From Levilinea saccharolytica (lineage in GTDB: Bacteria; Chloroflexota; Anaerolineae; Anaerolineales; Anaerolineaceae), in contig NZ_LGCM01000039.1 of the NCBI RefSeq assembly GCF_001306035.1, positions 62,001 to 126,000 of the forward strand: a stretch of 64,000 nucleotides of DNA, written 5' to 3'. Positions 50,200 through 60,184 of this stretch are shown one piece after another. The notes beneath the pieces were generated by a model that did not search any database, was not told where the DNA came from, and worked only from the letters and a program-made list of their open reading frames with translations. Made by a program: the position numbers and the translations under genes. Position 1 is the first letter of the stretch. Every line of letters starts with the position of its first letter.

Positions 50200-51507
50200 C
50201 TACGGCAGCACCCGAATCAGATCAAAATTCACTTCCCCGCTGCCCGTCTGCATCAGCGTCAGCGTATGCGTGCCAGCCTGCGTCCAGCGCCGCCGCCACA
50301 CCCGCCCCCACAGCTCACTGCTGCGCCGCTGGTCAATCGTCGTCACCGCCTTGCCGTCCACCCACAGGCGCAGCTTACCCGCCTCAGGCAAACGCGCATA
50401 CACCAGTTCTACCCCCCGGCCGGTAAAGGTCAGCGCCGCGGCCTCGTGCACACCGCCCGTGACCACGTAATCCCCGCCTACCGCGGAAATATGCTCCCGC
50501 GTCATCCAGCCGTTGCCGTAGCTCATCAGCGGCTCACCCAGGGCCTGGTACTCCCCCGGCCCCGCCGCCGCCCACGGCTGAAAATCCAGGTCAAGGCCCA
50601 AAAGCGAAGGGCTGGGCTGCAGCGGATCGAGCGGGGGATGCCCACCCACTTCAATGAAGTAAGTCAGGCCAGCCACCACCGGCATGGCGTTGATCTTGGT
50701 CTGAAACACGCTCGTACCCGCGTCCTCGCCTTCAAAAGGCGGCATCTGACCGCTGTACCCCACCCAGGCGGCCGTGTCATAATTGCTGCGCGCCGTGTCC
50801 AACGTCAGCCAACCCGAGATGACCGGCTTAAAGCGGTACCACACCGTGCGTTCCAACACCGCGTTCACCACCGGCGGGTCGCTGGCTGCCTGGGTCGCCC
50901 GCCAAACATCTGTATCCGCCGACCAGGTGAAGGGCGTGCTGCTGGCAGGCACTTTGACGGCGTAGGCGCGCGCATCGTTGACCGCCCGCGCCGGCTGAAA
51001 GCGTGCGCTGAGGTGCAGCTGCCCCTCGGCAGGGGTTTTGGCCGCCAGCACAATGCGCACTTCCTGGCCGCCTTTCAATGCCGCGCTCAACTGGGAATAC
51101 TTGCCGCGGGATGCGTTGTCGTTCCATTTCAGCGGTTTGGCGCTCAGACTGCCGTCCGGGTTCACCAGCCATACCCCCAACAGGGTGTCCACACTGCTGC
51201 CCTGGCTGCTCAGGCGCAGACTGCCGGGGGCGTGTGTGCGCAGGCGGTACCACAGGGTGGCGTAGCCGCTTTGCGCCTGCCCGCGCAGGGGAAAGAGCGG
51301 GTCATCCCCCGCGCTGCTGGCGCAGGCCGTCTCCTGGGTGTCCTCCCAGGTCTGCAGCCCGCCGGTCAGCGCCCATTCCTGCGCTCCTTCGGCCAAATCA
51401 TGCAGCGCCGGGCAGTCCGCCTGTGCCTGCACGCCGCCAACCAGCCCGCCCAACAGGGCGATCACCACGCCCCACAAAGAGAATTGGAACCATTTGAGCC
51501 GCAGCAT
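50200..51507 (-). CDS. Secreted beta-rich protein with PPC-like domains
   Basis: A 435-residue exported protein. The signal peptide MLRLKWFQFSLWGVVIALLG ends at VQAQA. The mature part has two repeats of a pre-peptidase C-terminal (PPC)-like beta domain: SGYATLWYRLRTHAPGSLRL and NAVLERTVWYRFKPVISGWL, each followed by a DTLLGVW/YDTAAWV strand. A carbohydrate-binding-like C-terminal sandwich ends GEVNFDLIRVLP, nearly the same end as the adjacent protease (MVNVDAVRVLP). No catalytic domain is seen. GGGAGGGAG precedes the ATG at 51507. Confidence 0.75.
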   Translation of the reverse strand: MLRLKWFQFSLWGVVIALLGGLVGGVQAQADCPALHDLAEGAQEWALTGGLQTWEDTQETACASSAGDDPLFPLRGQAQSGYATLWYRLRTHAPGSLRLSSQGSSVDTLLGVWLVNPDGSLSAKPLKWNDNASRGKYSQLSAALKGGQEVRIVLAAKTPAEGQLHLSARFQPARAVNDARAYAVKVPASSTPFTWSADTDVWRATQAASDPPVVNAVLERTVWYRFKPVISGWLTLDTARSNYDTAAWVGYSGQMPPFEGEDAGTSVFQTKINAMPVVAGLTYFIEVGGHPPLDPLQPSPSLLGLDLDFQPWAAAGPGEYQALGEPLMSYGNGWMTREHISAVGGDYVVTGGVHEAAALTFTGRGVELVYARLPEAGKLRLWVDGKAVTTIDQRRSSELWGRVWRRRWTQAGTHTLTLMQTGSGEVNFDLIRVLP

Positions 51508-51594
51508 AGTCTCCCTCCCGCATTGCCCCATATACCCAAGCAAACCATGACCCACCTGTGCTTTCATTTTATTGAATTTTCGCCGGAATGGCAA

Positions 51595-51629
51595 CAAAAA
51601 AGGCGAAGCAGGATGGATCCCACTTCGCC
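51595..51629 (-). terminator. Terminator of the first papain-like protease gene
   Basis: Leftward GGCGAAG and CTTCGCC form a 7-bp stem with a 14-nt loop, followed by TTTTTT. Confidence 0.75.
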
Positions 51630-51652: not shown

Positions 51653-54532
51653 CTACGGCAGCACCCGCACCGCGTCCACGTTTACCATCGCGCCAGAGCG
51701 GTGCACAAAGGTGATGGTATGCACCCCCGGCTTCAGCTTTGGCGTGCGCCACACCACCTGATCGGTCTCGGTGCTGCTCTTCTGCCCGCGCAGGGCGGTC
51801 ACGCGCCCATCCACCAAAATCTGCACCACTCCGCCCTGGGTCAGGCGTGAATACACCACCTCAGCGCGGCTGCCCGTAAAGGTCAGCCCGCTGGCTGCGT
51901 ACAGCTCCTGCGAGGTTAGCAAACTGCCATTCAGCGCGCCCTCTCGTCCGGCGGGCTGCCAGCCGCCCAGCGTCACCAACCCATCCGCGGGCAGGTCATA
52001 TTCGCCCGCACTCAGCGGCGCCCCCGGCACATAGCGCAGATCCAATTCCAACCACGAGGGCGCATTGGGGTCTTGGGAGACTACTTCAATATAATAGGTC
52101 AGCCCGCCTACCAATGCCGTCCCCTCCAGGCGCGCCTCCCCCTGAACTGCCGTCCGCAGGCCGCTGGGCGAAGAAGTGTACACCCCCACCCGCCCGGCAA
52201 AGTCGCTGCCCGCCAGGTCCACCGTCAGCGTCCCGTTTTGGCGCGGCTTATAGCGGAACCACACACTGCGGTGCAGGGGGCTGCCGTCAAAGAGCGGATC
52301 GCTGGCGGCGGTGGTGGCGTTCCACACGTCCAGGCTGGCGTGGTAATGGGTCTCCCCCGCCAGGGCATCCGTGATGCGCAGCGCGCTGCCGCGGGCGTCG
52401 TTGCTGGCCTTGCGCGGCGTGAACTGGCCGTCTACCACCAGCACACCGGCGGTGGTGGTCTTGCTCACCACCTCAATCCAGTAGGTTTGGCCGCCTTTCA
52501 GGCTCGCCGAAAGGGAAGAATGGCGCTTCTTTCCGGCGTTATCATTCCACTTCACCACTTTCGGTTCCAAACCGCCGCCCGCAGCCTCGGCCCACACCGC
52601 CGCGATGGTGTCGTATTCGCTGCCCAGGGTGCTCAGCCGTAAAGTGCCCGGCCCCAATGGGGTAAAGCGGTACCACACCGAACGGTAACCCTGCGGCGCG
52701 CTCTTGCGCGGCAGCCGCGGATCATCCGGCGCCGTGCTGGCATTCAGCGTGTTGCGCGTATCATGGAAGCTTTGCACCCCGCTCTGCCCCGCCCACACAA
52801 TCGCCTGATCGCGGTCATCGTTGACCGGCGGTTCGATCAGCCGGAAGTTGGCCGTGACGCTGCTGTTGGCCTTCACCACCAGGGTGGTCATGCCGTCCGT
52901 GCTGGTCACCGCCCCGCTCCAGCCGGTGAATTCATAGCCGTACTCCGGCGCGGCGGTCATCTGCAATACCGTGCCCTGGCGGTAACCGCTGCCGCTGGGG
53001 CAGTTGGGCCCAGGGTTCACCTGCACACTGCCGCCCGCGCTGGACTGCACATTCACCGCGTAGCAGGTGTCGCCCGCGGGGGTGGGGTCAAAGACCACGA
53101 AATTGGCCGCCGAGCCCAGGTTGGAAATGCCGCGCTGGATGCGCATGTAGCCCTGCTCGCCCCACCAGCTCCCCCAGGAATTGCGGATCAGCCAGGTGTT
53201 GTCGGCGTCGTTCCAGCCCACAATCACCACCGCGTGGTTGGTGGACCAGCTGTTCCCGCCGCAGCTGCTGGCTTCATTTTTCGCGAACACGCCCCCGCGG
53301 TAATTTTGAAACGCCGGCCCCACGCACACCGAGGCCCCCACCGGCCCATAGCGGTAAATGGCTTCTTTAATTTGCTGCTGACTGGGCGTCACCGTCCAGT
53401 TGCCGCCCACGAAAAACCAGGCTGACTGCCGGTATGGGTGCGCATCCACTACCTTGCAGCTGCCGTTGCTGGCCGAATAAGGCATATTCGCCTCCAGCAC
53501 CGCCCCCACGCTGCTTTGCTGGCGTCCTAATTCGTCCGTGTGATAGTCATGCGCGAACCAGTAGCCCCCGCCGCAGCCGTAACCGTCGCGGTTGCAGGAG
53601 ATGAGGAACTGCTCCGAAAGGTCGGCTGCCGCCGCGCCCTTCTGCACCATCAGGGCCGATTCCATCACCCCCACCGTGCCAAAGGCCCAGCAGCTGCCGC
53701 AAGAGCCCTGGTCGCGCACCGGCGTAGTCTTGCCCAGCGCCAGCAGGCTGTAAGACGCGGGCAGTTGGGTGGCCTGCAGCGATCCTAAAACCGACTCGGG
53801 GGGCGGCACGTTCTCGCCCACTTCGGGGGTGGGCAGGGCTTCCAACGGGCTGCTCAAATCCACAGCTTCCATCCACTGCCCCATCTGCACGTTCAGCCGC
53901 GCCAACGGGGCCTGGCTCACCTCAAATGGGCGCTGGTACACCAGGCGCAGCACGGCTTCGCCGCTGACTGCCGCCTCCAGGTCAAAATGCACCTGGGCCG
54001 GCGCCCCTGGGTAACTGCCGCGGCTGGTCTGGTACGGCTCCGCCGTCAGGCGCAGGCCGCTTTCCTCCAGCCCCGCCAGAGTCCATTGGTATCCCGCCGC
54101 CGGGCGCGCTTCCAGGGTCAGGCTCAGGCGCTGACCCTGCTCGGCCCACCCGCTCAGTTGCACTTCCGCCGGGCCGCCCAGAAAATCAAAGCCGCCCGCT
54201 AAATCGGCAAACAACACTTCAGCCAGGACGGGGCCTTCCGGCGCTTCGCCCTGCGCGCTCACCTGTACCCACTCGCCCTGCGCGTCCGCCGCCCCCACCC
54301 CGGTGACAGCCGCTGCGCTGCCTTCCAGCCGTTCGGCCAGCGCCTGGCGCACAGCCTCTTGAGCGGTCTCATCCGCCTGCGGAACGCGCACCTGCATCTC
54401 CAGCTGCCAGCTCAGCCCCTGCGGGGCCTGGGCCTGTGCGGGCTGCCCGCCTCCCCAAAAGGAGAGGGCCAGTCCCAGGGCAGCTAGCCAATGAATTCCG
54501 CGGTGGAGTGCGCGTAGGGTTGATGATTTCAT
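51653..54532 (-). CDS. Secreted papain-like (C1A) cysteine protease with chagasin-like N-terminal domain
   Basis: A 959-residue exported protein. After the signal peptide (to about 35) comes a region with the three chagasin (inhibitor I42) loops: AAGYQW (145-150), the RGSYPG loop (171-176) and QRPFE (200-204). The C1A domain follows: oxyanion Gln275, Cys281 in CGSCWAFGT, His433 in NHAVVIVGWN, Asn451 in RNSWGSWWGEQGYM. Residues 490-565 form an InlB-like bacterial repeat (YGYEFTGWSG). Two PPC-like domains (about 570-830) and a C-terminal beta sandwich complete it. The N-terminal domain probably acts as an intramolecular inhibitor or chaperone, by analogy. Confidence 0.9.
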   Translation of the reverse strand: MKSSTLRALHRGIHWLAALGLALSFWGGGQPAQAQAPQGLSWQLEMQVRVPQADETAQEAVRQALAERLEGSAAAVTGVGAADAQGEWVQVSAQGEAPEGPVLAEVLFADLAGGFDFLGGPAEVQLSGWAEQGQRLSLTLEARPAAGYQWTLAGLEESGLRLTAEPYQTSRGSYPGAPAQVHFDLEAAVSGEAVLRLVYQRPFEVSQAPLARLNVQMGQWMEAVDLSSPLEALPTPEVGENVPPPESVLGSLQATQLPASYSLLALGKTTPVRDQGSCGSCWAFGTVGVMESALMVQKGAAAADLSEQFLISCNRDGYGCGGGYWFAHDYHTDELGRQQSSVGAVLEANMPYSASNGSCKVVDAHPYRQSAWFFVGGNWTVTPSQQQIKEAIYRYGPVGASVCVGPAFQNYRGGVFAKNEASSCGGNSWSTNHAVVIVGWNDADNTWLIRNSWGSWWGEQGYMRIQRGISNLGSAANFVVFDPTPAGDTCYAVNVQSSAGGSVQVNPGPNCPSGSGYRQGTVLQMTAAPEYGYEFTGWSGAVTSTDGMTTLVVKANSSVTANFRLIEPPVNDDRDQAIVWAGQSGVQSFHDTRNTLNASTAPDDPRLPRKSAPQGYRSVWYRFTPLGPGTLRLSTLGSEYDTIAAVWAEAAGGGLEPKVVKWNDNAGKKRHSSLSASLKGGQTYWIEVVSKTTTAGVLVVDGQFTPRKASNDARGSALRITDALAGETHYHASLDVWNATTAASDPLFDGSPLHRSVWFRYKPRQNGTLTVDLAGSDFAGRVGVYTSSPSGLRTAVQGEARLEGTALVGGLTYYIEVVSQDPNAPSWLELDLRYVPGAPLSAGEYDLPADGLVTLGGWQPAGREGALNGSLLTSQELYAASGLTFTGSRAEVVYSRLTQGGVVQILVDGRVTALRGQKSSTETDQVVWRTPKLKPGVHTITFVHRSGAMVNVDAVRVLP

Positions 54533-54674
54533 TCCAGTTCACCTCTAAGGTCGTGCTTTGAAAAAGTTGTGCAGCCAATGGCTACCATTTACCTCTACAA
54601 TTGTAGCGGAAAAACGCCCCCTGCTCACCCCACCTTACAGAATTGTGGGCTTTGACGTAGGGCAGCGGCAGCCA

Positions 54675-54711
54675 AACGGGGCTGCCCGTTTGCTGCGGAC
54701 AGCCCCGTCGT
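54675..54711 (-). terminator. Terminator-like hairpin after the subtilisin-like gene
   Basis: Leftward ACGGGGCTG and CAGCCCCGT form a 9-bp stem with a 15-nt loop, followed by TTGG rather than a full T run. Confidence 0.5.
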
Positions 54712-54749
54712 TTACTGGAAACAACTTTCAGCGCGTTAGGCGCGGGTGC

Positions 54750-57533
54750 TTACTTCACCGGGCAGTCTTCCTTGCCCGCCGCCTCACAAGCCGCCGCCTT
54801 CTGATCCCACAGCTCTTGAGTCATCGCCGGTTCCAGCGACATGCGCGCCTGGTACTCAGCCATGCTGATGAACGGCCCTGCCGGGCTGCCCGTCACCGAG
54901 GCCGGGTCGACCTCAACCGCTTGCGGCCAGAGCGCTTCGGCCCCCGCCCCACCAATGGGGATGGAGAGCGCTGCGCGGTCCACGTAGAAGTAATCATTGT
55001 AATCCCACCAATCCATCACAAACGAATGTACGCCGGTCACGCCGCTCTTGATGCCGTTTTGGGTTCCGGAGTACAGCAGCGTGCCGTTGATGTAGAAATT
55101 CATTACGCCGTTCACCCAGGTCACCCGTAGGGTGTTGTAACCCGTTGGATTGATGGCCGACGAATACGTCCAGCCCACCACCGGGCGCTCCGCGCCAGAA
55201 GCATAGCGCCAGATGGAGTAATACCCACCGTTGACGTAATTAAAGGCGTAGCCGCTGGACAAGCCGCCCCAGCGTTTGGCGTTCGTGGATCCGTGAATGA
55301 AGATCCCGTTGGAAGCATATGGATCCCCATTCCGATCCATGACGGCGGTGTAATCCAGATTGCCCTCAAAGGACGCGTGGTTGGCGCTGGCCCAGCTGTA
55401 ATTCGGGCCGTACCAGGAGTAGAAATCCGTCGAACTCTGGAACCAGGCGCCGATGGAGGGCCTTCTCTCCAGCCAGCCGGTGTGATCGCCGTTGAACTCG
55501 GAGACGAAGCCGTTAAAGGCCACGTTGAAGGCCCCGTCCGCAGCCGGCCCATAGCCTAGCGGGTTCCACGGGGTAACGCGGTAGGTGTAGGAGCCCGCCA
55601 GGAAGGTCTTCGGCGCGGGGATGCTGCAGCCGCCCGGATTGCAGATCGCGGTGCGCAAATAGGTCTTGGTGAAGATCTTCGAGGTGCCTTTCCAGATCTC
55701 CAGCTTGTATTTGTCGCCCACTGGCGGTGCCGTGTAGCCCCAAATAAACTCCGGGCCCCAGTAGTTGTAATTCCCATTCGGGCTGATCAACCCCACGGCC
55801 GCGGGCAGGGTATTGGGTGTCGAGAAGGCTCCCGGAGCCGACTCTGGGCCAGACCCCGCCAGCGAAGCGGGCTTCACCGTCCAGGTGAAGCTGCCCGTGG
55901 GGAAAATCTTAGTGCCGTAATACCAGCACTGACCGCTCAATGGGTCGCACACATCGGAGGTGTTGACCGTCTTGCTGAAGACCGTCTTTGTGCCCTTCTT
56001 CACCGTGATTTTGTATTTGCTCGCCAAATCCACATGCGACCAGCCAAATTCGACCGCGGAATATTCCGTCATGATCCCACCCGTCGGCCAGTACAGCGTG
56101 GGCACCGCAGTCGGCTTCACAAATTTCCCAACCGCCCCGGCCAGATCTAAGCGCGGGGTTTTCTTGCCGTTGCGCCAGTCAGTAATCTTCTTACCCGTGC
56201 TGCGGAAGGCGCCCAGAGCTTCGCTGACCGAAGCCGAGGGGCGCGCCTGGCGGTACACCGCCCAGGCCCCCGCCACGTGCGGGGTGGCCATGGAGGTGCC
56301 GTCGTAGGAATCATAGGCGTTTCCGGGGACCGAGGAATAAATATCCACGCCCGGGGCCAGCAGCTTCAGCATCGAATCGTAATTGGAGAAACTCGCCACA
56401 TAATCGAACTTATCCGTGGCGCCCACCGCCACCGCCGAGGAAATGCAAGAAGGCGAACCCATCCCATCCGTGAATCCATCATTGCCCGAGGCGATCACCG
56501 TGGCGATCTTGACCCCGCGCAGCTTGTCAATGGCGCGCTTCACCGCCGGTTTGGACGAATCGCAGTAGCTTTTATACTTTCCGCCGCCCAGGCTCATGTT
56601 CACCGAGGCGATGTTGTAGCTGGTGCGCAGCACGTACACACGCTCCAGACCCTTGACGTAGTCCGAATCCCAGGTGTAGGTTCCTCCATAATAATCCGAA
56701 AACACCTGGATAGCGATGATGCTGGCCCCAGGGGCCACGCCGTACAGCGGCAGGGAGGTATTCTTGCCCGCGGCGATGCCGGCCACGTGCGTCCCGTGGC
56801 TGCATTGGCCCATATAGCAGGGAACGCCGCTGCCTACCGCGGTGCTTTCCGGCACGCCCCCTGGGCACACCGAGGTGGCCACACCGTTAGCGCCCGAATA
56901 GCAGGCTTCCGAAACCACTTTGCCGCCCGCGAACATGGGGTGATTCTTGTCCACACCCGTGTCCAGGATCGCCACAGTCCAGCCCGTGCCGTCATAGCCC
57001 GCGCCCCAGGCTTCGGGCGCGCGCACGATCTTGGTGCTGTCGCTCAGGAAGGCTTCATTGATACCGTCTTCCTGCACCGCCGTCACCGCCGGGGAGGCCA
57101 CCAGGGCGTCCAGCCCCGCAGCATCCACCGTCATGGCCATGAAGGGGAAGACTTCGAAGCGGGTCACATGCGTGGGGTTCTTATCCGCCAGCGCCTCCAA
57201 CAGCAGGTCCTGGGCCTGAGCCACCACCTCGCGCTGAGCCGCCTCAGCGCTTACATCCCCTTCCTCGCCTTCCAAATCCGGCACGTCCAGCACCACCAAC
57301 ACGCGCACGGTGCCGTCCGCCGCAGCCTTGGCGGCCAGCGGGTCGTACCCATCCGCTACCTTGGCTTTAGCTTCTTTGCTCAAGCCCACACCGCGGGCGC
57401 TTTCGGCTTCCGCATTGGGCGGCTCGTCCTGGGCCTGCGCCGGGGACGCCGCAAAAAACAGACTGGACATCAGCACGCTGACCATCACCAGCGCGGAGAC
57501 CATCCATTGCAGGGTCTTTCGTGGAACACTCAT
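54750..57533 (-). CDS. Secreted subtilisin-like (S8) serine protease
   Basis: A 927-residue exported protein. The signal peptide (TLQWMVSALVMVSVLMSSLFF, to about 35) resembles that of the second papain-like protease. An inhibitor I9-like propeptide spans about 70-165. The catalytic triad is Asp191 (ILDTGVD), His246 (SHGTHVAGIAAG) and Ser414 (GTSMATPHVAG), with Asn351 in ASGNDG. Two fibronectin-like beta domains (about 480-680) and a concanavalin-like C-terminal domain (about 690-870) may bind surface glycans. GGGAGG precedes the ATG at 57533; the ATG five codons earlier overlaps that site. Confidence 0.93.
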   Translation of the reverse strand: MSVPRKTLQWMVSALVMVSVLMSSLFFAASPAQAQDEPPNAEAESARGVGLSKEAKAKVADGYDPLAAKAAADGTVRVLVVLDVPDLEGEEGDVSAEAAQREVVAQAQDLLLEALADKNPTHVTRFEVFPFMAMTVDAAGLDALVASPAVTAVQEDGINEAFLSDSTKIVRAPEAWGAGYDGTGWTVAILDTGVDKNHPMFAGGKVVSEACYSGANGVATSVCPGGVPESTAVGSGVPCYMGQCSHGTHVAGIAAGKNTSLPLYGVAPGASIIAIQVFSDYYGGTYTWDSDYVKGLERVYVLRTSYNIASVNMSLGGGKYKSYCDSSKPAVKRAIDKLRGVKIATVIASGNDGFTDGMGSPSCISSAVAVGATDKFDYVASFSNYDSMLKLLAPGVDIYSSVPGNAYDSYDGTSMATPHVAGAWAVYRQARPSASVSEALGAFRSTGKKITDWRNGKKTPRLDLAGAVGKFVKPTAVPTLYWPTGGIMTEYSAVEFGWSHVDLASKYKITVKKGTKTVFSKTVNTSDVCDPLSGQCWYYGTKIFPTGSFTWTVKPASLAGSGPESAPGAFSTPNTLPAAVGLISPNGNYNYWGPEFIWGYTAPPVGDKYKLEIWKGTSKIFTKTYLRTAICNPGGCSIPAPKTFLAGSYTYRVTPWNPLGYGPAADGAFNVAFNGFVSEFNGDHTGWLERRPSIGAWFQSSTDFYSWYGPNYSWASANHASFEGNLDYTAVMDRNGDPYASNGIFIHGSTNAKRWGGLSSGYAFNYVNGGYYSIWRYASGAERPVVGWTYSSAINPTGYNTLRVTWVNGVMNFYINGTLLYSGTQNGIKSGVTGVHSFVMDWWDYNDYFYVDRAALSIPIGGAGAEALWPQAVEVDPASVTGSPAGPFISMAEYQARMSLEPAMTQELWDQKAAACEAAGKEDCPVK

Positions 57534-57778
57534 TTCTGCCTCCCTCAATTAGAAACTACTGTGGAAATGAAAGAAAAAACCTCACCCAAAGGGTGAGTGA
57601 TGGCCCCCAAAAGCGGCCGTCGCCGGGAATTTCCCTTGGGGCAATAGGTATTACAATTTTGATCTACTTAATTTATTCTAATTTTATTATGGCATATTTT
57701 TAAACCATCAGCAACAAAATGTTGCACTATACAAGCATATTACAATGAAATTACAAGATAAATGCAACTTTTAAGAAC

Positions 57779-57807
57779 AAAAAGGCGCTCCCCCTGAGGG
57801 GAGCGCC
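57779..57807 (-). terminator. Terminator of the second papain-like protease gene
   Basis: GGCGCTCCCC (57784-57793) and GGGGAGCGCC (57798-57807) form a perfect 10-bp stem with a 4-nt loop; leftward it runs into TTTTTG. Confidence 0.9.
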
Positions 57808-57829
57808 CAAAACAAAACCCTTGCGTCGT

Positions 57830-60184
57830 TTAGCGCGTGTAGGTCAGATTCCACATCATCAGGTACGGACCGCCGTAGGTCTGCGAGCCGAAGCCGATCC
57901 AATAGGTGCGTCCGCCCGTCAGGCCCCCTGGCCAGGTCTTGCCGGTCTCTGGGTCCGATTCGGGGACAACCTGAACCGTCTCGCCCGGCTCTACAACCCG
58001 CGGGAAGCCCGGCATCACCTGCCGTCCGCTGGTCACCCCGCTGGCATAATAGAACATGGTGATCTGCCAGGGATAAGTAGAGTTGTTGGTGATCGTCGCC
58101 GTACCCGACACATCTGGTTTGAATTTATACCACACGGTATGGTGCGGGTAGGTGGTCCACCAGCCGTTGTAATACCACTGGTAAAAGTCTTCGCGCGAGG
58201 TGGTCGCCTTGGAGATGTCCCAGAATTCCGTGTAACTGGTCACATCCGCCGGGATCTTGCGCGCAGCGCCGCGATTATTGTGCGGGGGGGCCTTGGGCTT
58301 AAAGTTCACCCGCGTGTACAGGTTTCCGCCACCCTCGTATTTGCTGGCCACTTCGATCCAATAGGTGGTGAGAGCCTTCACGCTGCGGGACATCTTGGAA
58401 TACGTCTTCTTGCTGGAGACGTTATCGTGCAGGCCCATGCGCTTCAGCGTCCCATCCGGCATTTCTTTGTAAATCGCCAGCACGGTGTCGTAATCGCTGC
58501 CGATGGTGTCCACTTTCAGCACGCCGTTCACCCAGGGGGTCACCGTATACCACACGGTGTTGTACCCCTGGCCCAGCTTGGTGGAAAGGATCGGATCGTC
58601 CGCCGAAACGGTGGCCCCAGCGGTGGTTCCCGTCCAGGTGTAGTCTATTTGACCGCCCTGATCAGGAGGATAGTAGGCGGTGGCCATAGTGTCATTGGTC
58701 ATAGCTTCCACCGGTTCAGAGAAGGCCGCATACGAAGCCCCCTGCCCCACCAGGTCGTAGCCGTAGCGGATGCGCATGTAGCCGCCTTCGCCCCAGGTGG
58801 GACCCCACGAGTTGCGCAGAATCCAGGAGCTGGTGGCGTCGTTCCAGCCCACCAGCACGATCTGATGGTTGGCCGCGCCGGAGCAGTAGGAAATACCCGC
58901 ATCCACAGAATAGACGCCGCCGGTGTACGAGTACCAGCCCGGGTCCACGCACACGCCCGCCGTCACCGCACCGTATTTATAGATGGCGGCCTTAATTGCG
59001 TCCACGCTGGGCGCGCCGTAATCCCACCCGGAAACCAGATAGTTCCACTCCACCAGGGGTCCCTGCTGAATTTCGCGCGTGCAGGGCACATTGGTGCGCT
59101 TGGAGCTGCCGGTGTTGCCATCCATATAGGGCATGTCGCTTTCCAGCACTGGCCCCGGCATCAACTGGTTCTTGGCCTTGGTGTCGTAATAGTACTTGCT
59201 GGCGGTGAAGCCGCCCGTGCAGCCGTATTTGTCCTTATTGCAGGAGATCAGGAATTGCTCCGACAGGTCGCGGCTGTTGTTGTAGGACTTGGCAAAGTTA
59301 AATTCCGCCGCGCCTACCGTGCCAAACGCCCAGCAGGAACCGCAGTTTTCCTGGTCGCGAACGGCCGGTTCGGGCCAGGCTTCGGCGCGCGCGTCATACG
59401 AAGCGGGCAGTGCGCCCACCATTGGGGTTTCGCCCTCGCCCAGCGCCGCCACCGTGGGGGCTTGGGGCAGGCTCAAATCTTCCACATAGGGCTGAACCAG
59501 GCTGAACTCCGCCGGCATCTCCGCCGTGCTCAGGCGCACGGTATAGCGCGCCTCTTCCGCCTGCCAGGCTCGCCGGTAGGTCAGGCGCAGCTTGGCGTCG
59601 CCGCCCTGCAGGGCTTTGATCTGAAGGGTGTCCACCGAAGGCGCGCCCAGGGCTTTGCCCTTCTGCGCCACCATGTGCTCCACCACCTCAAAACGCCCAT
59701 CGGGGTCGTCCAACTGCCAGCCGTAGCCGGTGGTCATGTTGCCGTCCAGCCGCACGGTCATCACAGCCTCCGCCGGCATGGCCGCCGCAATTTCCACGTC
59801 CATGGCCGCGCCCGCGAAGGGGAACAGGCCGCTCAAATTCTGGAAGACCACCTGCTGAAGCTGCTCCAGGCCGCCCGTGCCGCGCACCAGCACCTGAAAA
59901 TTCGCAGCTTCCGCGCTCTGACCGGTAGGCTCCACCGCGAAGCTGGCGGCTTCGCCCAGCGCCTCGGTCAATTCGCCTTCCAAAGACGCACGGGCTGCTT
60001 CAGCCCCGCCCAGTGCGCTCACCTCACCCACCGGAACGCTGGTGACCAACACCAGCTCCCACTGGGTTTCCCCCGCCTGGGCCTTCACCGGCGTGGGGTT
60101 GACCATCACAAAAGCAGACAGAACCAGGCTGATCATCACCAGCGCAGATACTGCCCAGTGGACCGACTGACGCGTCGAAACCAT
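57830..60184 (-). CDS. Second secreted papain-like (C1A) protease with chagasin-like N-terminal domain
   Basis: A 784-residue exported protein with a signal peptide to about 36. The chagasin-like region is clearer than in its neighbour: MTTGYGW (150-156), close to the NPTTGYxW loop of true chagasins, then a KGKALGAP loop and RRAW (204-207). The C1A domain has Gln278, Cys284 (CGSCWAFGT), His440 (NHQIVLVGWN) and Asn458 (RNSWGPTWGEGGYM). Two PPC-like domains follow (LGQGYNTVWYTVTPWVNGVL and PHHTVWYKFKPDVSGTAT). It lacks the InlB-like repeat and C-terminal sandwich of the other protease, so the two are paralogues with different tails. Confidence 0.92.
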   Translation of the reverse strand: MVSTRQSVHWAVSALVMISLVLSAFVMVNPTPVKAQAGETQWELVLVTSVPVGEVSALGGAEAARASLEGELTEALGEAASFAVEPTGQSAEAANFQVLVRGTGGLEQLQQVVFQNLSGLFPFAGAAMDVEIAAAMPAEAVMTVRLDGNMTTGYGWQLDDPDGRFEVVEHMVAQKGKALGAPSVDTLQIKALQGGDAKLRLTYRRAWQAEEARYTVRLSTAEMPAEFSLVQPYVEDLSLPQAPTVAALGEGETPMVGALPASYDARAEAWPEPAVRDQENCGSCWAFGTVGAAEFNFAKSYNNSRDLSEQFLISCNKDKYGCTGGFTASKYYYDTKAKNQLMPGPVLESDMPYMDGNTGSSKRTNVPCTREIQQGPLVEWNYLVSGWDYGAPSVDAIKAAIYKYGAVTAGVCVDPGWYSYTGGVYSVDAGISYCSGAANHQIVLVGWNDATSSWILRNSWGPTWGEGGYMRIRYGYDLVGQGASYAAFSEPVEAMTNDTMATAYYPPDQGGQIDYTWTGTTAGATVSADDPILSTKLGQGYNTVWYTVTPWVNGVLKVDTIGSDYDTVLAIYKEMPDGTLKRMGLHDNVSSKKTYSKMSRSVKALTTYWIEVASKYEGGGNLYTRVNFKPKAPPHNNRGAARKIPADVTSYTEFWDISKATTSREDFYQWYYNGWWTTYPHHTVWYKFKPDVSGTATITNNSTYPWQITMFYYASGVTSGRQVMPGFPRVVEPGETVQVVPESDPETGKTWPGGLTGGRTYWIGFGSQTYGGPYLMMWNLTYTR

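Follow-up and report, generated by a model that had tools for sequence, protein, structure and literature searches.

P1 and P2, two papain-like proteases of Levilinea saccharolytica, each hold a true I42 (chagasin) domain ahead of a C1A papain domain, and we think it rather probable that both are secreted C1A proteases made as tethered-inhibitor zymogens. We infer that the I42 domain docks in cis and inhibits its own enzyme until an activation route sets the enzyme free. Both genes lie in the window, by which we mean the whole 64-kb stretch of DNA that was analyzed. The genes and coordinates given in the preliminary description agreed with the ORF listing, in which P2, an S8 subtilisin gene and P1 are all on the minus strand with the S8 gene between the two proteases. 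The features are as follows, with the evidence in parentheses.

51653-54532, minus strand: P1, a secreted I42-C1A fusion protease of 959 aa (ORF, Pfam).
53093-53767, minus strand: P1 C1A papain domain, aa 256-480, with Q275, C281, H433 and N451 (Pfam, motifs).
53768-53887, minus strand: P1 linker, aa 216-255 (position between the Pfam domains).
53888-54166, minus strand: P1 I42 (chagasin) domain, aa 123-215, with loops L2 RPAAGYQW, L4 GAPA and L6 YQRPF at 199-203 (Pfam, loops).
54750-57548, minus strand: S8 subtilisin-like protease, neighbor of P1 and P2 (Pfam, E = 8.6e-37).
57783-57808, minus strand: terminator-like hairpin after P2 (11 pairs, 9 of them G-C, and a T tail; consensus match).
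57830-60184, minus strand: P2, a secreted I42-C1A fusion protease of 784 aa (ORF, Pfam).
58730-59416, minus strand: P2 C1A papain domain, aa 257-485, with Q278, C284, H440 and N458 (Pfam, motifs, fold).
59417-59518, minus strand: P2 I42-C1 linker, aa 223-256 (low pLDDT in the I42+C1 model; family linker lengths).
59519-59797, minus strand: P2 I42 (chagasin) domain, aa 130-222, with loops L2 NMTTGYGW at 149-156, L4 LGAPS near 179-183 and L6 YRRAW at 203-207 (Pfam, loops, predicted fold).
59798-60073, minus strand: P2 N-terminal module, aa 38-129, predicted beta-alpha-beta-beta-alpha (ferredoxin-like) (AF2 model).

Inspection by eye placed a Sec-type signal peptide at the start of both P1 and P2, and the P2 ATG is immediately preceded by GGGAGG, which resembles a ribosome-binding site. 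A curated NCBIfam name was found for neither protein. The window also encodes, at 50200-51597 on the minus strand, a 465 aa protein without a Pfam match that by eye is similar to the C-terminal part of P1.

Assignment of the I42 domains came from profile and fold comparisons. The Pfam I42 profile matched aa 131-208 of P1 (50.1 bits, E = 3.6e-13) and aa 139-215 of P2 (50.7 bits, E = 2.2e-13), both above the curated cut-off of 27.2 bits, and in each protein this match was followed by a C1 match, at aa 268-472 in P1 (E = 5.5e-45) and aa 259-477 in P2 (E = 3.9e-39), as expected from the original claim of a chagasin-family domain upstream of the papain domain. Fold prediction was run on P2 alone, using aa 38-262 without C1, and the resulting AF2 model had a pLDDT of 93 and a pTM of 0.82. 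In a VIA search aa 130-223 of this model aligned with chagasin (2h7w) over 86 residues at 2.6 A with a Z score of 7.2, which is a middling value, and the top Foldseek match was the inhibitor EhICP2 (E = 2e-4, prob 1.00). Comparison of a predicted structure with chagasin had been proposed as a check, and for P2 it returned the chagasin fold rather than an unrelated one. A profile of 46 N-terminal regions, all taken from fusions, found Pseudomonas aeruginosa ICP (2wgn, at 4e-26), amoebiasins and chagasin in the PDB, in agreement with the fold comparison. The module at aa 38-129 of P2 gave generic ferredoxin-like matches in structure searches, with Z up to about 7, and its profile matched 18 of 64 fused frames plus two frames that have I42 but lack C1. 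A joint model of the I42 and C1 domains of P2, based on an alignment of only 10 sequences, was of low confidence (pLDDT 66, pTM 0.61), and the matches found in a structure search with it were all taken up by C1 domains.

The Gln-Cys-His-Asn residues are intact in both proteins, as first reported, and the catalytic columns are invariant in an alignment of 79 related proteins. The nearest PDB entries to the P2 C1 domain were cruzain and rhodesain, with a fold Z score of 22.9 to rhodesain. When the 79 related C1A proteins, P1 and P2 included, were scanned with Pfam at E 0.01, an I29 propeptide was detected in none of them, in agreement with the original claim that P1 and P2 lack it. I42 was present in 50 of the 79, and the other 29, some of which start at contig ends, had neither domain; enzymes of this kind can therefore do without either.

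A search for the same fusion in other Chloroflexota, suggested at the outset, found it in many members of the phylum and beyond it. Within the L. saccharolytica genome itself four of six C1 matches are fused to I42, namely P1, P2 and two identical copies on contig C64, and two further I42 genes, on contig C10, are free. The contig C64 gene encodes a third I42-C1 fusion of 1686 aa, found twice (L072:3251-8308 on the minus strand and L073:8185-13242 on the plus strand), and by eye the later part of the protein is clostripain-like. Both copies belong to a perfect inverted repeat, 16 kb or more in length, and this repeat may be an assembly artefact. Among 400 genomes drawn from the phylum, 14 C1 matches scored at least 130 bits and 11 of these were in frame with I42; of the remainder, G304 was truncated inside I42, where its contig ends, and G072 and G253 were unfused. 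Among 301 genomes drawn from the order, 18 of 24 such matches were fused, the unfused ones being G563, G631, G072, G486, G560 and G538. These phylum and order counts each include four rows of the L. saccharolytica genome. Low-scoring C1 proteins sharing a frame with I42 were absent from both draws, except for a contig-end fragment of G335. In the order and phylum draws, then, high-scoring C1A proteins are as a rule fused.

Public genomes were scanned using an alignment of ten fusions as the query. In the 78 loci taken, the best 78 of 560, the fusion was present in 49 (48 of 77 extracted frames plus L116), with L163 and L114 tallied as non-fused although both start at contig ends; a few of these loci come from contigs that the phylum draw also contained. 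By record title 34 of the 49 fused loci are Chloroflexota and 15 are other bacteria, from Pseudomonadota, Thermodesulfobacteriota and other 'Deltaproteobacteria', Myxococcota, Bacteroidota and Acidobacteriota together with one Cyanobacteriota MAG. Single taxon labels may be wrong, because most of the fused public loci are MAGs. In viral contigs no close relatives were matched. Leptolinea tardivitalis YMTK-2, which carries the fusion (L122), is an isolate, and thus cultured material may exist. In a C1 tree, which was used for clustering alone and in which the G253 row is out of frame and L114 is truncated at the end of its contig, the fusion was clustered, requiring 7 changes compared with a mean of 26.5 for shuffled labels.

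The anatomy of the fusion is fixed. Of 64 fused frames, a few of which are duplicate records, all 64 have the order I42 then C1, a regularity far from what chance would give, and in 63 the two domains are separated by a linker of 25-62 aa rich in Pro, Ala and Ser. The remaining frame, L146:972-3587 on the plus strand, has a gap of 245 aa that apparently holds an extra inserted domain. This constancy of side and spacing is not what would be expected of an accessory Ig-like binding domain. Across 58 fusions the I42 and C1 distances were correlated (Mantel r 0.64, exceeded in 0 of 999 permutations), and mean identity among fusions was 29% for I42 versus 50% for C1. Comparison with Levilinea sp. 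D180, the nearest relative, gave dN/dS values of 0.13 for the P1 I42 domain and 0.36 for that of P2, each on few changes, which indicates that both I42 domains of the window are under purifying selection. The D180 orthologue of P2 (L091:3001-4083) has an in-frame TAG inside I42, which may be a sequencing error or decay.

The binding loops of the fused domains are chagasin-like in part. Passages of PMC2607524 and PMC7863939 report that the Ki of chagasins for C1A enzymes is in the pM to nM range, that L2 lies at the catalytic center, that residues T31, T32 and W93 of chagasin are important and that binding is reversible and tight; GxGG at L4 is described as conserved in chagasins in a section of PMC2607524. 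Of the loops originally listed for P1 and P2, L2 and L6 were found, and the 'G-rich loop' was not entirely accurate, since L4 is GxP and not the canonical GxGG. At L2 the NPTTG motif is represented by NMTTG in P2 and RPAAG in P1, whereas at L6 P1 has RPF and P2 has RAW, a variant of RP[WF]. Loop conservation was compared between 53 non-redundant fused domains and 32 free ones. The L2 residues of the fused domains were N in 37, P in 36, T in 46 and G in all 53, and at L6 R was found in 49 and W or F in 50. GxGG at L4 occurred in 0 of 59 fused versus 27 of 43 free I42 domains and GxP in 43 of 59 versus 6 of 43, the repeat records L091, L125, L126, L131 and L162 having been omitted from the loop counts and L073 and L084 also from the L4 count. 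GxGG was not treated as strictly defining I42, because EhICP2, a member of solved structure and an inhibitor, lacks it and in the profile alignment has GFP at L4.

The L4 contrast between fused and free domains gave a Fisher p of 2e-9 with related sequences treated as independent. However, the I42 tree requires only 7 switches between the fused and free states, which leaves few independent events behind the contrast, and only two well-supported independent fused/free pairs were found in that tree, for which an L4 sign test was not significant. We therefore rejected the idea that the L4 sequence proves an adaptation to tethering; it is a correlate of fusion and need not be an effect of it. GxP at L4 is also found in free I42 domains that adjoin a C1 gene (L142, L152 and L097).

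The proposed mechanism is conveniently followed along the polypeptide, which consists of a signal peptide, a ferredoxin-like module (in P1 and P2), I42, the Pro/Ala/Ser-rich linker, C1A and C-terminal domains. Loops L2 and L6 of I42 would plug the active-site cleft of the protein's own catalytic domain and thereby take the role of the I29 propeptide. The exposed linker would then be cut, by the enzyme itself or by another protease, and dilution outside the cell would leave free enzyme, making the linker the putative switch. As chagasin-type inhibition is reversible, the tether would provide the high local concentration that keeps the enzyme off, and given such a concentration a fused inhibitor would not have to bind as tightly as a free one, which would fit the changed L4 loop.

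Several observations speak against a tethered zymogen: the loss of GxGG at L4, the RPAAG sequence of L2 in P1, the lower conservation of I42 relative to C1, the 29 of 79 related proteins without I42 or I29, the stop codon, possibly a sequencing error, within the I42 part of the D180 P2 gene and the low confidence of the joint I42 and C1 model. The first three of these, with GxGG absent from all 59 fused domains and I42 diverging faster than C1, would also be expected if I42, once an inhibitor but no longer a tight binder, now assisted folding or served simply as an Ig-like structural module. We consider such a role unlikely, given that the two loops in contact with the active site, L2 and L6, are conserved, that the solved inhibitor EhICP2 likewise has GFP at L4 and that the N-terminal position and linker length are constant. 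The fusion could instead be a means of equal co-secretion, with I42 acting in trans once released to shield the producer or to block proteases of competitors or a host. Bacterial chagasins are able to inhibit foreign C1A enzymes, according to part of PMC5014320, and free chagasin genes are present both in the same genome (the two on contig C10) and beside the fusions L092, L101 and L104. Those free genes, however, would already supply a trans inhibitor, the L4 of fused domains differs from that of free ones and an inhibitor tethered 1:1 would meet its own enzyme first; we regard action in trans as quite improbable. The perfect 16 kb inverted repeat around the third L. saccharolytica copy, possibly an assembly artefact, could raise the suspicion of accidental or misassembled gene fusions. 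An accident is nevertheless refuted by the breadth of occurrence, in 49 of the 78 public loci (the best 78 of 560) and in many order and phylum genomes, and the dN/dS below 0.4 of both I42 domains relative to a close relative argues in the same direction; we give it almost no credence.

The neighboring subtilisin had been put forward as a possible activator of the two proteases. This was not supported: the S8 neighbor is not conserved and a terminator-like site lies between P2 and S8. A scan of the neighborhoods by motif alone, with flanks of roughly 3 kb at most loci, found an S8 motif beside the protease elsewhere only in L091 and L125, loci of one close relative. The terminator scan overall gave no more terminators than shuffled sequences, and the hairpin after P2 is a strong consensus match; judging from this sequence P2 probably ends its own transcript. 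Hence, the S8 protease was rejected as a dedicated activator of P1 and P2, and the gene at 54750-57548 is regarded simply as a neighbor.

The Calditrichota loci L142 and L152 each have separate I42 and C1 genes that are direct neighbors on one strand, an adjacency expected of an inhibitor-enzyme pair, and we count this in favor of the tethered-inhibitor reading. Immediately downstream of the fusions in L092, L101 and L104, and in the same orientation, there is a free chagasin gene (L092:5264-5746, L101:2976-3443, L104:3164-3652), and similar pairs were found in G576, G613, G625 and G643. In L088, L089 and L090 a free I42 gene and a small C1 gene of a different type are convergent, and the small C1 genes of L088 and L089 lack a propeptide-sized N-terminus. 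The neighborhoods of L142, L152 and L088-L090 would fit a functional pairing of the I42 and C1 families in bacteria. Some frames carry several I42 domains, four in one 504 aa frame (G011:C229:35954-37252) and two in frames of G139, G292 and G058, and these are possible multi-headed inhibitors.

A broader proposal, which we consider somewhat less likely than not, is that I42-C1A proteins are a hitherto undescribed zymogen class spread over several bacterial phyla, in which a captured inhibitor serves as the propeptide, with L4 changed from GxGG to GxP and inhibition strong only when tethered. Many bacterial chagasins would then natively control their producer's own secreted C1A enzymes, whether as a tethered domain, as the partner gene of an operon or as a free protein encoded next to a fusion. 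The role of bacterial chagasins is given as not yet elucidated in a passage of PMC5014320, and that role becomes directly testable in one polypeptide when a protease bears its own chagasin. The fusion also offers a model for engineering latent proteases that linker cleavage would switch on. It shows how an inhibitor can turn into a propeptide, and the I29-like free inhibitors are the mirror image of that change.

The closest known systems share only parts of this architecture. A description of an I42-C1 fusion was not found in our searches of the open-licence PMC literature, and the fusion may have been noticed before or be listed in Pfam or MEROPS pages. Cathepsin F has an inhibitor-type domain fused upstream of its papain domain, as do P1 and P2, but this domain is cystatin-like rather than I42 and cathepsin F also retains an I29 propeptide. 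The I29 zymogens of the C1A family (procathepsins, propapain) likewise combine a papain domain with an N-terminal blocking segment, a function that in P1 and P2 would fall to an Ig-like inhibitor domain on a linker, I29 being absent; the I29 propeptide is mostly helical and passes through the cleft opposite to the substrate direction (part of PMC7863939). The stefin-chagasin of Bacteroides fragilis, as introduced in a portion of PMC2784779, is also a bacterial I42 fusion, although it joins two inhibitors and has no protease. With the chagasin family (MEROPS I42, Pfam PF09394; chagasin, ICPs, amoebiasins and P. aeruginosa ICP) the fused domains share sequence family, fold (as predicted for P2) and the L2 and L6 loops (with RPAAG at L2 in P1), whereas the known members are separate proteins and the domains described here are N-terminal in a protease of the target type and have GxP rather than GxGG at L4. 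I42 and C1A are each known, and what is unusual is their combination, within what would be zymogens having N-terminal inhibitor domains.
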